NCBI RefSeq assembly: GCF_000156375.1
Contig: NZ_DS996359.1
Coordinates: forward strand, 856,665-920,664
From: Desulfovibrio piger ATCC 29098
GTDB taxonomy: Bacteria > Desulfobacterota > Desulfovibrionia > Desulfovibrionales > Desulfovibrionaceae
Length of the DNA: 64,000 nucleotides
Reading direction: 5' to 3'
Below the pieces are notes generated by a model that worked only from the letters and a program-made list of their open reading frames with translations, ran no database searches and was not told where the DNA came from. Shown here one piece after another: positions 1 to 5,261 of the stretch. A program made the position numbers and the translations under genes. Within the stretch, counting starts at the first letter, position 1; each line of letters begins with the position of its first letter.

Positions 1-15
1 GGTCGCTGTGCTCAT
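1..15 (-). CDS. start of an unidentified minus-strand gene, cut by the window edge
   Basis: A purine-rich ribosome-binding site (GAAAGGA on the minus strand, 26 to 20) lies 4 bases before an ATG at 15. A second ATG at 19 directly abuts it and is less likely. Only five codons are visible (M-S-T-A-T), so the product cannot be named. The gene follows the 18-codon ORF at 106-50 by about 34 bases, so the two are probably cotranscribed away from nikA. Confidence 0.3.
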
Positions 16-49
16 ACATTCCTTTCAGCAATTCACCTTGCGGCTATCG

Positions 50-106
50 TTATTTTTTACCTTTAATGAGTCCTGAGCCTACGCCATGCGGCTTGTTTTT
101 CCTCAT
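50..106 (-). CDS. 18-residue micro-ORF, possible leader peptide
   Basis: On the minus strand a near-perfect Shine-Dalgarno (AAAGGAGG, within 120-107) precedes an ATG at 106. It opens an 18-codon frame, MRKNKPHGVGSGLIKGKK, closed by TAA at 52-50. The peptide is basic (six Lys, one Arg), glycine-rich, and has one His and no Cys. It lies between the 126-189 inverted repeat and a second minus-strand start near 15, as expected of a leader peptide or small protein heading a divergent operon. I do not recognise the family. The ribosome-binding site is strong, but such a short frame could still be chance. Confidence 0.4.
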   Translation of the reverse strand: MRKNKPHGVGSGLIKGKK

Positions 107-125
107 CTCTCCTCCTTTGAAATAT

Positions 126-189
126 GTGGCATGTTTTTAAAAAGCGTGCTACGATTTTTTTGGTAGCACGCTTTTTAAAAACATGCCAC
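126..189. promoter_or_regulatory. perfect 27-bp inverted repeat with nested symmetry; candidate nickel-responsive (NikR-type) operator pair
   Basis: Bases 126-152 and 163-189 are exact reverse complements separated by a 10-base T-rich spacer. Each 27-base arm is itself a near-palindrome: half-sites of the form GTRGCAYG and CRTGCYAC flank an 11-base core built around T5A5. The element lies between the divergent micro-ORF (start 106) and nikA (start 208), where promoters must lie. The E. coli NikR operator is GTATGA-N16-TCATAC, also about 28 bp with GT/AC outer bases, so regulation by a NikR-like dimer at two sites is my inference. No U-tract follows the hairpin, which argues against a terminator. 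Confidence 0.55.
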
Positions 190-207
190 TAGTATGGGGA
201 GGTCCCT

Positions 208-1803
208 GTGGAAAAAATGAGGATGGTCAAACTGCTTTCATGCTGGCTGCTGCTCTGCGGCCTGATCCTTCTGGCCGGCTGCCAGGATCGGGACGGGGAG
301 AGGGTCGCCGCTCCGCGCACCGAGCTGGTCTACGCCAGCACCAAGGATATCCGGGACATCAATCCGCATCTGTATGGCGGTGAGATGGCGGCCCAGGGCA
401 TGGTCTTCGAGCCCCTGGTCATCAATACGGCGGAAGGGGTCCGGCCCTGGCTGGCCGAAAGCTGGGAGATATCGCCGGACGGCCGCGTCTACACCTTCCA
501 TCTGCGCCGCGGGGTGACGTTCAGCGACGGGACGCCCTTCGATGCCGAAGCCGTCCGCCTGAACATGGATGCCATCATCGCCAACCGCCTGCGCCATGCC
601 TGGCTGGACATGATCAACGAGATCGAGCGTCACGAAGTCGTGGACAGCCACACCTGGCGTCTGGTACTCAAGCATCCCTATTATCCCACCCTCATCGAGC
701 TGGGGCTGCTGCGTCCCTTCCGGTTCATCTCGCCGTCCTGCCTCATCGACGGGCAGACGCGTGACGGCGTGCGCGGCCTTGTGGGCACGGGCCCGTGGGT
801 CCTGAAGGAACACAAGGAGAACCAGTACGCCCTGTTCACGGCCAATGCCTCCTACTGGGGCGAGAAGCCTCGCTTGCAGGCCGTGCGCTGGAAGGTGATG
901 CCCGACCATCAGGCCATCCTGCTGGCCCTGCACAAGGGGGACGTGGATCTGGTGTTCGGGGCCGATGGCGACATGCTCAATCTGGACAATTTCGACGCCA
1001 TCCGTCGTGAGGGGCGCTACGCGGCGGCCATCAGCCAGCCCATCGCCTCGCGGGCCATACTGCTCAACGCCCATCAGCCCTTCACCCGGGAGCGGGACGT
1101 GCGCCTGGCCCTGCAGTACGCGGTGGACAAGGAAGGCATCGCCGCCACCATCCTCAACGGTTCCGAGACCGTGGCTCCCAGCCTGCTGGCCTCCACGGTG
1201 GCGTATTGCGACCTGCCGCTGGAAGCGCGCGGCCATGACCCGGAAAAGGCGGCCCGCCTGCTGGACGGGGCCGGATGGCTCATGGCGGCTGACGGCTGGC
1301 GCTACAAGGACGGACAAAGGGCCAGTGTGCGCCTGTACTACAATTCGCAGAACGCGCAGGAGCGCAGCATCGGGGAGTACATGCAGGCGGACCTGAAAAA
1401 GATCGGCGTGGAGATGAAGATCGTGGGCGAGGAGAAGCAGGCCTTTCTGGATCGCCAGAAGAGCGGCGACTTCGAATTGCAGTACTCCCTGTCCTGGGGC
1501 ACGCCCTACGATCCGCAGTCCTATCTTTCCTCGTGGCGCATCCCGGCGCACGGGGACTATCAGGCCCAGCTGGGCCTGGAACGCAAGGACTGGCTGGACG
1601 CGTCCATCACCCGCCTGATGACCGAGACCGACGAGGAACGCCGCAAGGCCCTGTATGCGGAGATCCTCGGCTATGTGCATGACGAGGGCGTCTACATCCC
1701 GCTGACCTATTCCCGGACCAAGGCCGTCCATGTGCGGGAGCTCAAAGGGGTATCGTTCGGCGTGTCGCAGTACGAGATCCCCTTCGAGAAGATGTATTTT
1801 TGA
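208..1803 (+). CDS. nikA: NikA, nickel-binding lipoprotein of a nickel ABC importer
   Basis: Periplasmic solute-binding protein, family 5 (SBP_bac_5), 531 residues. A GTG start at 208 sits 5 bases after GGGGAGG. The N-terminus is a lipoprotein signal with lipobox LAGC (Cys25). The sequence follows E. coli NikA rather than general peptide binders: NRLRHAW, LLRPFRF, GTGPW, YWGEKP and WGTPYDP are all present. Residues matching the E. coli NikA pocket (from memory: R97, W100, R137, W398, H416) appear as R129, W132, R169, W430 and H448 at a constant offset of 32. It heads the nikABCDE operon. Binding of nickel-histidine or a nickel chelate is inferred from the family. Confidence 0.9.
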   Translation: MEKMRMVKLLSCWLLLCGLILLAGCQDRDGERVAAPRTELVYASTKDIRDINPHLYGGEMAAQGMVFEPLVINTAEGVRPWLAESWEISPDGRVYTFHLRRGVTFSDGTPFDAEAVRLNMDAIIANRLRHAWLDMINEIERHEVVDSHTWRLVLKHPYYPTLIELGLLRPFRFISPSCLIDGQTRDGVRGLVGTGPWVLKEHKENQYALFTANASYWGEKPRLQAVRWKVMPDHQAILLALHKGDVDLVFGADGDMLNLDNFDAIRREGRYAAAISQPIASRAILLNAHQPFTRERDVRLALQYAVDKEGIAATILNGSETVAPSLLASTVAYCDLPLEARGHDPEKAARLLDGAGWLMAADGWRYKDGQRASVRLYYNSQNAQERSIGEYMQADLKKIGVEMKIVGEEKQAFLDRQKSGDFELQYSLSWGTPYDPQSYLSSWRIPAHGDYQAQLGLERKDWLDASITRLMTETDEERRKALYAEILGYVHDEGVYIPLTYSRTKAVHVRELKGVSFGVSQYEIPFEKMYF

Positions 1804-1857: not shown

Positions 1858-1871
1858 GATGAAGGATGGAC

Positions 1872-2807
1872 ATGAAGCATTGCCTGTTGCGTCGTCTGCT
1901 GGGGCTCGTGCCGCTCCTGCTGGGGATATCGTTCCTGTCGTTCGTCCTCATCCAGCTCAGCCCCGGGGATCCGGCGGAAGTGGCCATCCGGGTCAACGAC
2001 ATCACCCCCACGCCGGAACTGCTGGCCGAGATGCGCGCGCAGCTGGGGCTGGACAGGCCCTTCCCGGAGCGCTACCTGCGCTGGCTCGCGGATGTGCTCC
2101 GGGGCGATCTGGGCACGAGCTATGTGAACGGGCGGCCCGTGGCCGGAGAGCTGGCCCAGGCCCTGCCGCCCACCCTGATGCTGGCGGGGACGGCCGCGGC
2201 CATCATGCTGGCATGCAGCCTGGCCGTGGCCCTGGTCTGTGTCCGCCATGAGGGCAGGGCGGTGGATCGTTTGCTGCGGGGCCTGCTCTTCCTGGGCACC
2301 TCCGTACCGGCCTTCTGGGCGGGGCTGCTGCTGATCTGGCTGTTTTCCGTCCATCTGGACTGGCTGCCCACCGGCGGCCTTGAGGGACCGTCCTCGCTGG
2401 TGCTCCCGGCCGTGACGCTGGCCTTGCCGTATCTGGCCGCCTATGCCCGGCTGTTGCGCAACAGCATGGTGCAGACCGCACAGGAGGATTTCGTCCTCTA
2501 CGCCCGGGCCTGCGGCCGCAGCCGGGGGGCCATCCTGCGCATGGTGCTCCGCAATTCCCTGCAGGCCAGCCTCACGGCTCTGGGCATGAGCCTGCCCAAG
2601 CTGGTGGCGGGCAGTTTCGTGGTGGAGTGCATCTTTGCCTGGCCCGGGCTGGGGCGTCTGTGCGTCACGGCCATCTTCAACCGGGATCTTCCCGTCATCC
2701 AGGCCTATGTCCTGCTGATGGCCGTGCTGTTCGTGGCCGGCAACCTGTGCATGGACATCTGTGCGTCCCTGTTGGATCCGCGCCTGCGTGAACGGGGGCT
2801 GCGATGA
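1872..2807 (+). CDS. nikB: NikB, nickel ABC transporter permease
   Basis: Inner-membrane permease of the BPD_transp_1 type, about 311 residues, with the N-terminal helix LLGLVPLLLGISFLSF and the DppB/NikB-type element SPGDPA. The cytoplasmic coupling region is seen near YARACGRSRGAIL and the following LRNSLQASLTALG. The ATG at 1872 is preferred over the in-frame ATG at 1866 because AAGG at 1862-1865 leaves six bases to 1872 and none to 1866. Its stop overlaps the nikC start (ATGA), so the two permeases are translationally coupled. It forms the translocation pore with NikC; nickel as substrate is inferred from nikA. Confidence 0.88.
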   Translation: MKHCLLRRLLGLVPLLLGISFLSFVLIQLSPGDPAEVAIRVNDITPTPELLAEMRAQLGLDRPFPERYLRWLADVLRGDLGTSYVNGRPVAGELAQALPPTLMLAGTAAAIMLACSLAVALVCVRHEGRAVDRLLRGLLFLGTSVPAFWAGLLLIWLFSVHLDWLPTGGLEGPSSLVLPAVTLALPYLAAYARLLRNSMVQTAQEDFVLYARACGRSRGAILRMVLRNSLQASLTALGMSLPKLVAGSFVVECIFAWPGLGRLCVTAIFNRDLPVIQAYVLLMAVLFVAGNLCMDICASLLDPRLRERGLR

Positions 2808-3634
2808 GGTGCGTACGGGCATTGCTGCATGACAGGGCGGGCCTGGCCTGTCTGCTGTTCCTGGGCATCGTGCTGCTGGCGGCCCTGCTGGCCCCGTGGC
2901 TGGCGCCCTGGGATCCGCTGGCCGTGGACGGCAGCCGCAAGCTGGCCCCCTGCGGCCCCGAGCACTGGCTGGGACGCGACATCTTTTCCCGTCTGCTCTA
3001 CGGGGCCCGGGCCACGCTGGGCGTCTCGCTGCTGGCCATGGGGGCCACGGTCACGCTGGGGGCCCTGCTGGGCATGCTGGCGGGCCTCGTGCGCGGACGG
3101 GTGGAGGCCTGCCTCATGCGTTTGTGCGACGTGATGCTCTCTTTTCCCGGCGAGGTCATGGTGCTGGCCATCGTGGGCATGCTGGGGCCGGGGCTGGAGA
3201 ACGTGGTGCTGGCCTGCGTGGTGGCCAAGTGGCCCTGGTACGCGCGCATGATGCGGACCGTCACCCTTCGCTATGCGGACAGGGACTTCGTGCGTTTCGC
3301 GCGCGTGGCGGGCTACGGCACGGGGCACATCATCCGGCGCCATCTGCTGCCCTGCGCTGCCGGGGAGATCAGCGTCCTGGCCACGCTGGATACCGGCGCG
3401 GTGATACTGATGGTCTCGGCCCTGTCCTTCCTGGGGCTCGGCGTGCAGCCGCCCACGCCGGAATGGGGCATGATGCTGGGCGAGGCGCGGGAGGTGATGG
3501 TCCTGTACCCGTGGCAGATGCTGCCGCCCGGGCTGGCCATCCTGCTGGTGGTGGCGGCCTGCAATTATCTGGGCGACAGCCTGCGTGATGCCCTGGACCC
3601 CAGGCACGCCATGCACAAGGAGCCTGTGCTGTGA
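2804..3634 (+). CDS. nikC: NikC, nickel ABC transporter permease
   Basis: Second permease, 276 residues, of the DppC/NikC type. It has an N-terminal transmembrane helix (LACLLFLGIVLLAALLAPWL), then the family element HWLGRDIFSRLLYGAR, then five more hydrophobic segments. The EAA-like coupling loop lies around FARVAGYGTGHIIRRHLLP and is followed by SALSFLGLGVQPPTPEWG, which is highly typical of this family. ATG at 2804 overlaps the nikB stop; its own TGA overlaps the nikD GTG. It pairs with NikB in the inner membrane. Confidence 0.88.
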   Translation: MRCVRALLHDRAGLACLLFLGIVLLAALLAPWLAPWDPLAVDGSRKLAPCGPEHWLGRDIFSRLLYGARATLGVSLLAMGATVTLGALLGMLAGLVRGRVEACLMRLCDVMLSFPGEVMVLAIVGMLGPGLENVVLACVVAKWPWYARMMRTVTLRYADRDFVRFARVAGYGTGHIIRRHLLPCAAGEISVLATLDTGAVILMVSALSFLGLGVQPPTPEWGMMLGEAREVMVLYPWQMLPPGLAILLVVAACNYLGDSLRDALDPRHAMHKEPVL

Positions 3635-4443
3635 GTCATGGACATCGGGCGCCGTTGCTGGAACTGCGGCATGTCTCCGTCACCGAGGGCCTGTCCGGCA
3701 GGCCGCTGGTGCAGGACGTGAGCTTTTCGCTGCAACGCGGGCACTGTCTGGGCATCGTGGGCGAGAGCGGCAGCGGCAAGAGCCTGCTTTGCCGGGCCCT
3801 GCTGGATCTGCTGCCGTCCGGGCTGGTCAGGAGCGGGCAGGTGCTTTTCGACGGCCGCGACCTGAGCCGTCTCGATCCCGCGGGCTGGCGGGAGCTGCGC
3901 GGCACGGGCATGGCTGTCATCCTGCAACAGGCCATGACGGCCTTCGATCCTCTCCGGCCTTTGGGAAAGCAGCTGACGGGGACCTTGCGGGACAGAAGAG
4001 GGCTTTCCGCTGCCCGGGCCCGGGAGGACGTCCGCGATGCCCTGCAACGGGTGGGCCTGCCGGAGACCGTCCTGGACAGCTATCCGCACCAGTTGTCCGG
4101 CGGCATGCTGCAACGCTGCATGATCGCCCTGACCCTGGCCCTGCGGCCCGCGCTGGTGGTGGCCGATGAGCCCACCACCGCGCTGGATGCCTGCCATCAG
4201 CGGCAGGTGCTGCGCTGTCTGGCCGACCTGGCCCGTGATGCTTCCCTGATCTTCGTCTCGCACGATCTTGGCGCGGTACAGCAGCTGGCCGATGAGGTGC
4301 TGGTCATGCAGGCGGGGAGCTGCGTCGAATACGGGCAGGCGGCACAGCTTTTCGATGCGCCGTGCCATGCCTGTACCCGGCATCTGGTCCGTACCCGGCT
4401 GGCCCTGTGGCGGGGCTTCCGGAAAGCCCTGGAGGACAGGTGA
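3631..4443 (+). CDS. nikD: NikD, nickel ABC transporter ATPase
   Basis: ABC ATPase of 270 residues: Walker A GESGSGKS (residues 44-51), Q-loop in [12 protein letters not shown], signature LSGGMLQR, Walker B LVVADEPT, and H-loop in VSHDLGAV. It starts with GTG at 3631, overlapping the nikC stop by four bases, and has no separate ribosome-binding site, so coupled translation is likely. It powers nickel import together with NikE. The C-terminus ([14 protein letters not shown]) is of the NikD/DppD type but shorter than most oligopeptide ATPases. Confidence 0.87.
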
Positions 4444-5261
4444 TGACCGGCAGGGACATTTTTCTTTCTGTGCAGGACATCTGGAAGACCTACGCCGTCC
4501 CGCATGGAGGGGGCTCCCGGCCCGTGCTGCGGGGCCTGGACTTTTGTCTGGAGCGGGGCGGGATGGCGGGCCTGGTGGGCGAGAGCGGCAGCGGCAAGAG
4601 TACGCTGGCGCGCCTGCTGCTGGGGCTGGACTGCCCCGACCGTGGCACCGTGCTGCTGGAAGGCCAGCCCCTGCGGCAGTGGCGGGCCCGGGGCGGAAGG
4701 CTCTCCGTGGTCTTCCAGGATTATATGACCTCGGTAAATCCGGGATTCACGCTGGCGGAGGTCGTGGACGAAGGTTTTGGCCCGGGCTGTCGTCTCTCCC
4801 GCCGGGAGCGGCGGTGGGAAGTGGACAGGCTGCTGGAGCGCGTGGGGCTTTCTCCTGCGCTGGCTGGCCGCCTGCCGCATGAGCTCAGCGGCGGACAGGT
4901 ACAGCGGGCCTGCATCGCTCGGGCGCTGGCCGCACGGCCGTCCTTTCTGGTGCTGGACGAGGCCGTGAGCTCGCTGGATGTCCCGGTGCAGGTGCTGGAA
5001 CTGCTGCGGGACATCCGCAGCGACATGACCTGTCTTTTCATCACCCATGACCTTCAGGCCGCGGCGCTGGTTTGTGACAGCCTGCTGGTCCTGGATCAGG
5101 GCCGCTGTGTGGAGCATCTGCCGGTGTCGCAGCTGGGGAGCGCCCGCAGTCCGCGCTTGCGGCGGATGCTGGAAACGGTGGTCCCGTTTCGCTCCGCCTG
5201 GGACGGAAGCTGGGATGACGCTGCCGGGGCAGAAGATACCGGTGACACAACGCAGAGCTGA
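4443..5261 (+). CDS. nikE: NikE, nickel ABC transporter ATPase
   Basis: Second ATPase, 272 residues from the ATG at 4443, whose A is the last base of the nikD stop (TGATG). Upstream in-frame ATGs lie inside nikD and are not used. Walker A is GESGSGKS, signature LSGGQVQR, Walker B FLVLDEAVSSLD, H-loop ITHDLQA. It partners NikD. After the gene come 193 bases with small hairpins and no recognised riboswitch before the methyltransferase start, so the last gene may be partly independently expressed. Confidence 0.86.
   Translation: MTGRDIFLSVQDIWKTYAVPHGGGSRPVLRGLDFCLERGGMAGLVGESGSGKSTLARLLLGLDCPDRGTVLLEGQPLRQWRARGGRLSVVFQDYMTSVNPGFTLAEVVDEGFGPGCRLSRRERRWEVDRLLERVGLSPALAGRLPHELSGGQVQRACIARALAARPSFLVLDEAVSSLDVPVQVLELLRDIRSDMTCLFITHDLQAAALVCDSLLVLDQGRCVEHLPVSQLGSARSPRLRRMLETVVPFRSAWDGSWDDAAGAEDTGDTTQS

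Follow-up and report, generated by a model that had tools for sequence, protein, structure and literature searches.

The region analysed is a 64,000-nucleotide stretch of the Desulfovibrio piger ATCC 29098 genome (hereafter the window), which starts directly after a 751-N assembly gap. Its left end holds a nickel importer operon, the remnant of a divergent gene, and a large inverted repeat lying between them. The features, in window coordinates, are as follows.

1-81, no strand assigned: end of an IS5-like insertion element, inside which the window starts, after the N gap
50-106, minus strand: detached start of a porin gene (some ten codons), continuing into insertion-element-like sequence
126-152, no strand assigned: putative operator 1 (arm 1), 27-bp NikR-like GTGGCAT-N13-GTGCTAC, scoring 35.3 bits on a matrix from which its own locus was left out and a near-identical relative was retained; arm kept in the relative G006
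153-162, no strand assigned: spacer of 10 bp
163-189, no strand assigned: putative operator 2 (arm 2), 27-bp NikR-like GTAGCAC-N13-ATGCCAC
208-1803, plus strand: nikA, nickel ABC transporter substrate-binding protein, GTG start (TIGR02294, 578 bits, cut-off 393)
1866-2807, plus strand: nikB, permease (NF045469, 431.8 bits, cut-off 380)
2804-3634, plus strand: nikC, permease (best match NF045473, 347.6 bits, just below the cut-off of 350)
3631-4443, plus strand: nikD-like ATPase (CntF 292.1, CntD 285.8, then NikD 249.6 bits, all below cut-off)
4362-5261, plus strand: nikE-like ATPase (best match TIGR02769, 210.2 bits, below the cut-off of 332.55)

The nickel importer and the split porin gene

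NikB passes a nickel/cobalt permease model, and the best models for NikC, NikD and NikE are nickel or opine importers, all below their cut-offs. The nikE-like reading frame is a mechanical call, with the real start probably further in. Among the matches listed, the D. piger nikA shares 42-48% identity with its counterparts in other genera of the family and 63-67% with several Bacillota and Sutterella-type loci, which suggests an origin by horizontal transfer. A second nik-like operon is present elsewhere in the genome (G000:C43:117695-127783); its NikA is 46% identical, and no NikR-like site was found upstream of this second nikA by matrix scanning. A porin of the same subfamily as the one discussed below (65% identical) lies about 7 kb from that operon, and the same arrangement occurs in several relatives.

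The preliminary description placed the repeat between a nickel importer operon and a divergent micro-ORF. The importer stands, and comparison with D. piger PG-251-APC-1 (L043) turns the micro-ORF, on the minus strand, into part of a split porin gene: its first codons, from window position 106 downward, match the start of a porin gene that in the latter strain is intact and divergent from nikA. The adjoining sequence (query 3/4-81/84) is 72-78% identical to eight plasmid records, annotated there as IS5 family transposase in five, as DDE transposase in one and without annotation in two. A second copy of the IS5-like end was not found in the assembly, and the gap hides the element itself. The body of the porin lies beyond the N gap (L005:3729-5240, 503 codons, NF033939 385.5 bits against a cut-off of 250) and belongs to the DESULF_POR1 family. 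Because about ten porin codons are followed by IS5-type sequence, the N gap and then 503 further porin codons, the micro-ORF is, judged from this order of sequence, the cut-off head of the porin gene and not an independent gene; the porin gene was probably split by the insertion element. The promoter of the split gene would now read into the element.

The inverted repeat and its resemblance to NikR boxes

A search of window positions 1-1000 returned a single inverted repeat, with arms at 126-152 and 163-189 that are each 27 nt long, 100% complementary and separated by 10 nt. Within either arm 10 of the 13 half positions mirror, so that both arms are near-palindromes in their own right, and 37 bp separate the two centres; the geometry given in the preliminary description was reproduced in full. 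By a rough estimate made outside any tool, a perfect 27-bp repeat at such closeness in 64 kb is far beyond chance (about 1e-10). A scan of the whole 2.87-Mb genome for GTRGCAYG-N11-CRTGCYAC, which the same description had proposed, recovered exact matches only at these two arms upstream of nikA and none with one mismatch among the matches listed. Looser matches remained at control level: with up to three mismatches the motif was no more than noise in the genome (107 places, the control pattern giving 104), and in the 64-kb window there were 4 matches against 3.55 expected. That the repeat might belong to a mobile element or dispersed repeat is suggested by the IS5-like end only 45 bp away, and was given next to no weight since the repeat is confined to a single locus of the genome, occurs without the insertion in G051, and has a single-site form at nikA in many species.

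No sigma-70 promoter match was found in window positions 1-330. The TGGCAT/C sequence resembles the -24 element of sigma-54 promoters. A sigma-54 promoter was considered on the basis of this outer half and set aside, no GC being seen by eye at the -12 place in the D. piger sequence.

The genome encodes a NikR (G000:C41) that scores 218.4 bits on PRK04460 (cut-off 105), 120.7 on NikR_C (cut-off 22) and 151.1 on TIGR02793, the last being below its cut-off of 175.45. In a genus sample of 61 genomes, comprising 60 drawn genomes and that of D. piger ATCC 29098, NikR_C was present in 55. Two genomes with nikA sites gave no NikR_C match (G020 and G060), and their assemblies are 79% and 74% complete.

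A 2004 study predicted NikR boxes of 27-28 bp in the delta-proteobacteria Geobacter, Desulfovibrio and Desulfotalea, with the forms GTGTTAC-N13/14-GTAACAC and, reversed, GTAACAC-N13-GTGTTAC (PMC545781). Both arms at the D. piger locus are built as 7+13+7 bp and fit this operator size, with half-sites 13-14 bp apart. Each agrees with the reversed form at 10 of its 14 half-site letters, and the nikA locus of G050 carries an exact reversed box at the orthologous site. Host group, length, reversed half-site layout and nickel-import targets are shared with the published boxes, and two such sites upstream of one gene cluster are given for Desulfotalea (PMC545781). The differences are the 4 of 14 half-site letters changed in each arm, and for its set of genomes the available part of that source reports no transporter of the NikABCDE type, nor does it describe a mirror pair in a nikA-porin region. 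The likeness to E. coli NikR operators noted in the preliminary description holds for size, the E. coli operator likewise being a 27-28 bp inverted repeat before nikABCDE; its consensus, quoted in PMC545781 as GTATGAT-N13/14-ATCATAC, is different, and the delta-proteobacterial box is the closer comparison. The four changed letters could also mean that the arms belong to another regulator with a palindromic box, such as a Fur, Zur or ModE relative, whose boxes exist in these bacteria (PMC545781). This was judged very unlikely: the published Fur, Zur and ModE boxes have other letters and spacing in the same source, the orthologous loci provide a link to the exact NikR box, and further places with the motif precede DUF4198, CbiQ and TonB-receptor genes.

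Across the 61 genus genomes, GTRRCAY-N13-RTGYYAC matched exactly at 26 places compared with 15 for the backward control, so that a good part of the genus-wide matches is chance. The genes that they precede are nevertheless not random: 10 places lie at nikA, 4 before genes for DUF4198 proteins (a group that includes NikK), 3 before CbiQ genes, 2 before TonB-plug genes and 7 elsewhere. A nickel gene was not recognised at the 5 of these last 7 places that were inspected, all but those in G015:C132 and G040:C64. The sites before TonB-plug receptor genes (L140:1501-1527 in G010 and L133:1501-1527 in G034) raise the possibility that these are nickel receptors.

Within the D. piger ATCC 29098 genome, one DUF4198 gene is preceded by a NikR-like site of 20.4 bits (L193:318-344, G000:C42); in 5 Mb of random sequence nothing scored above 18 bits. 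There is one exact forward-type box (L196:3001-3027; G000:C36:126680-126706), flanked by a gene for a monomeric [FeFe] hydrogenase (TIGR04105, 572 bits) and by hydG (920.7 bits), after which comes hydE. This position recalls the published prediction of NikR control of an Fe-only hydrogenase (PMC545781), and the box could possibly be a nickel-dependent switch of [FeFe]-hydrogenase maturation. With two mismatches the forward-type pattern occurs at 5 places against 9 for the control, which is noise; one site of this level, no commoner than control, is at the start of a nickel/peptide-type ABC permease gene (L197:1977-2003; G000:C38:23776). The reversed-type motif, at the one-mismatch level, occurs at 8 places against 5 for the control. 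Six of these, in addition to the two arms, score at most 14.7 bits, and the best of the six (C37:151757), by a flavin-reductase-like ORF named by eye, was taken as chance. Outside the genus, nikA-like genes at an E value of 1e-100 or better occur in 31 of 199 genomes of the same family, and sites above 12 bits were present at 2 of the 24 loci scanned.

Conservation, spacing and the adjacent porin

In the genus, 28 nikA loci were found at 65% identity or more, from which two without upstream DNA were left out (G015 and G012, in which the contig starts within nikA). The comparison of related species proposed in the preliminary description found the motif conserved upstream of nikA across the genus: 25 of the remaining 26 loci have a site above 12 bits, and the 26th (G016) has a 28-bp form. 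Two sites above 12 bits are present at all 15 loci with an adjacent divergent porin, D. piger ATCC 29098 being counted among them with its porin split, and at none of the 11 without, which include G020, where only about 200 bp of upstream sequence is available and the neighbour is not really visible. Ten of these 11 have one site, that of G054 being weak and far (15.6 bits at -414), and the eleventh is G016, whose 28-bp form is missed by the 27-bp matrix. The matrix used for this count left out the locus being scored and kept its close relatives; when it was trained without that clade, the second site scored below 9 bits in G052, 17.4 in G042 and 15.1 in G013. At least three changes on the nikA tree are needed to account for the two-site state, two of them forced by well-supported branches, and the independent evidence for the link between site and porin is therefore a handful of events.

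The clearest case is the close relative G006, in which no porin match was found in the locus and genes for a type I restriction-modification system (HsdM, HsdS and HsdR, L123:1063-7473) lie upstream, where relatives have the nik-linked porin. Arm 1 is intact there (37.4 bits) and arm 2 has decayed (5.9 or 10.6 bits in two matrix scans), a loss of the second site with the loss of the porin. Contrary cases are G050 and G016, where a divergent porin lies about 575 and about 1059 bp away, respectively, and a second 27-bp site is missing. A search of 16 genomes with the porin gave 17 full-length matches that were at least 61% identical, of which 7 are beside nikA, 8 are within about 10 kb of a second nik-like operon and 2 are on contigs without a nik match; all remaining porin matches were at most 51% identical, except for two N-terminal fragments in G050 (62 and 66%).

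These comparisons bear on whether both arms could be NikR sites for nikA only, as tandem operators giving tighter repression, with the porin incidental. The closeness of arm 2 to nikA (163-189 compared with a start at 208), the absence of a sigma-70 promoter match, and the more distant divergent porins of G050 and G016, which have no site of their own, all fit such an arrangement. It was considered unlikely, given that the second site follows the adjacent porin in 15 of 15 loci and in none of the other 11, and that in the porin-less G006 the decayed arm is the nikA-proximal one. The assignment adopted here is that arm 1 presumably serves nikA and arm 2 the divergent porin gene.

Nine loci have their arm centres 35-39 bp apart and the other six 45-47 bp, or approximately 3.5 or 4.5 helical turns. 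When the loci were collapsed by hand to eight lineages, a small sample, the spacings clustered at a half turn (mean phase 5.3 bp in a turn of 10.5 bp; p about 0.014 by the Rayleigh test), which places the two centres on roughly opposite faces of the DNA.

Arm 1 and the reverse complement of arm 2 agree at 27 of 27 positions in D. piger ATCC 29098, at 26 of 27 in G051 and at 10-21 of 27 in the other 11 pairs, so that the perfection of the arms is local and not required. Two sites drawn independently from the matrix are expected to agree at 16.9 positions (standard deviation 2.3), and at 26 or more with a probability of 3e-5. Homogenisation of inverted-repeat arms by template switching has been described (PMC8604942, PMC7202029) and may have acted here, where a recent inverted duplication would look alike.

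The preliminary description had also raised control through a cruciform or an RNA hairpin, to which a terminator can be added. The 27 perfect pairs around a 10-nt loop would suit either structure, and one terminator-like match was obtained at 125-153 on the plus strand, with 0.5 expected. Such a function is extremely unlikely, and terminator, hairpin and RNA family were all rejected, because relatives do not preserve the pairing of the arms: in 11 of 13 pairs the 10-21 matching positions are at or below the level of independent sites, and in those 11 the core 13 bp pair at only 4-9 of 13 positions. Rfam returned nothing at gathering level for window positions 1-400, and its nine weak matches all scored far below gathering level, eight of them being microRNA precursors aligned to the repeat.

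Proposed mechanism and biological significance

The locus is best read, with reasonable though not high confidence and from comparative sequence data, as carrying two NikR operators, one for each divergent promoter (nikABCDE to the right and the DESULF_POR1 porin to the left), whose arms were presumably homogenised by template switching. The conservation across the genus, the presence of a NikR gene, the layout of the published boxes and the occurrence of the motif before metal-import-type genes all support two NikR-like operators between divergent units, as the preliminary description proposed. When nickel is plentiful, nickel-loaded NikR tetramers would occupy both 27-bp sites, with arm 1 closing the promoter of nikA and arm 2 that of the porin, and the inner- and outer-membrane steps of uptake would be turned down together. 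With the centres separated by approximately half-integral helical turns, the two tetramers would occupy more or less opposite sides of the DNA and could bind next to each other. That the larger repeat is perfect would be a by-product: two inverted near-palindromes form a quasipalindrome, which template switching during replication can homogenise. A more far-reaching version is doubtful, though conceivable, namely that tetramers side by side on opposite faces jointly close both divergent promoters, which would be tightly packed, that the porin subfamily serves specifically to carry nickel, or a nickel chelate, across the outer membrane, and that site and porin form one evolving module in which the second arm is lost with the porin.

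The E. coli nikABCDE operon has a single NikR operator and is not known to have a divergent porin. The arrangement in Helicobacter pylori is closer in several respects: NikR acts in divergent regions (nikR-exbB and ureA-Nrr2) and controls the outer-membrane porin-like genes hopV and hopW (PMC5385501), and two NikR operators lie on one promoter without looping or compaction, according to the available part of PMC5007355. It differs in its box and genes (PMC5385501, PMC5007355), in that a single operator serves both ureA and Nrr2 (PMC5385501), and in that the paired operators on ParsR, whose centres are 103 bp from each other, are intertwined with Fur (PMC5007355). No title or abstract describing a nikA-porin pair under NikR was found in the open-access literature on NikR, porins, Desulfovibrio, D. 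piger and nickel. NikR at divergent promoters and on porin-like genes is thus already known, and the two-site layout seen here is unusual.

The locus is also an instructive example of a conspicuous palindrome in which perfect symmetry is probably not what matters for function, and G006 is a natural experiment in which an operator decayed together with the loss of the gene that it presumably served. If the proposed reading is true, it shows how NikR could couple nickel uptake across the inner and outer membranes, and it singles out a porin subfamily through which nickel may cross the outer membrane of Desulfovibrio, gut and sediment bacteria that use [NiFe] hydrogenases.
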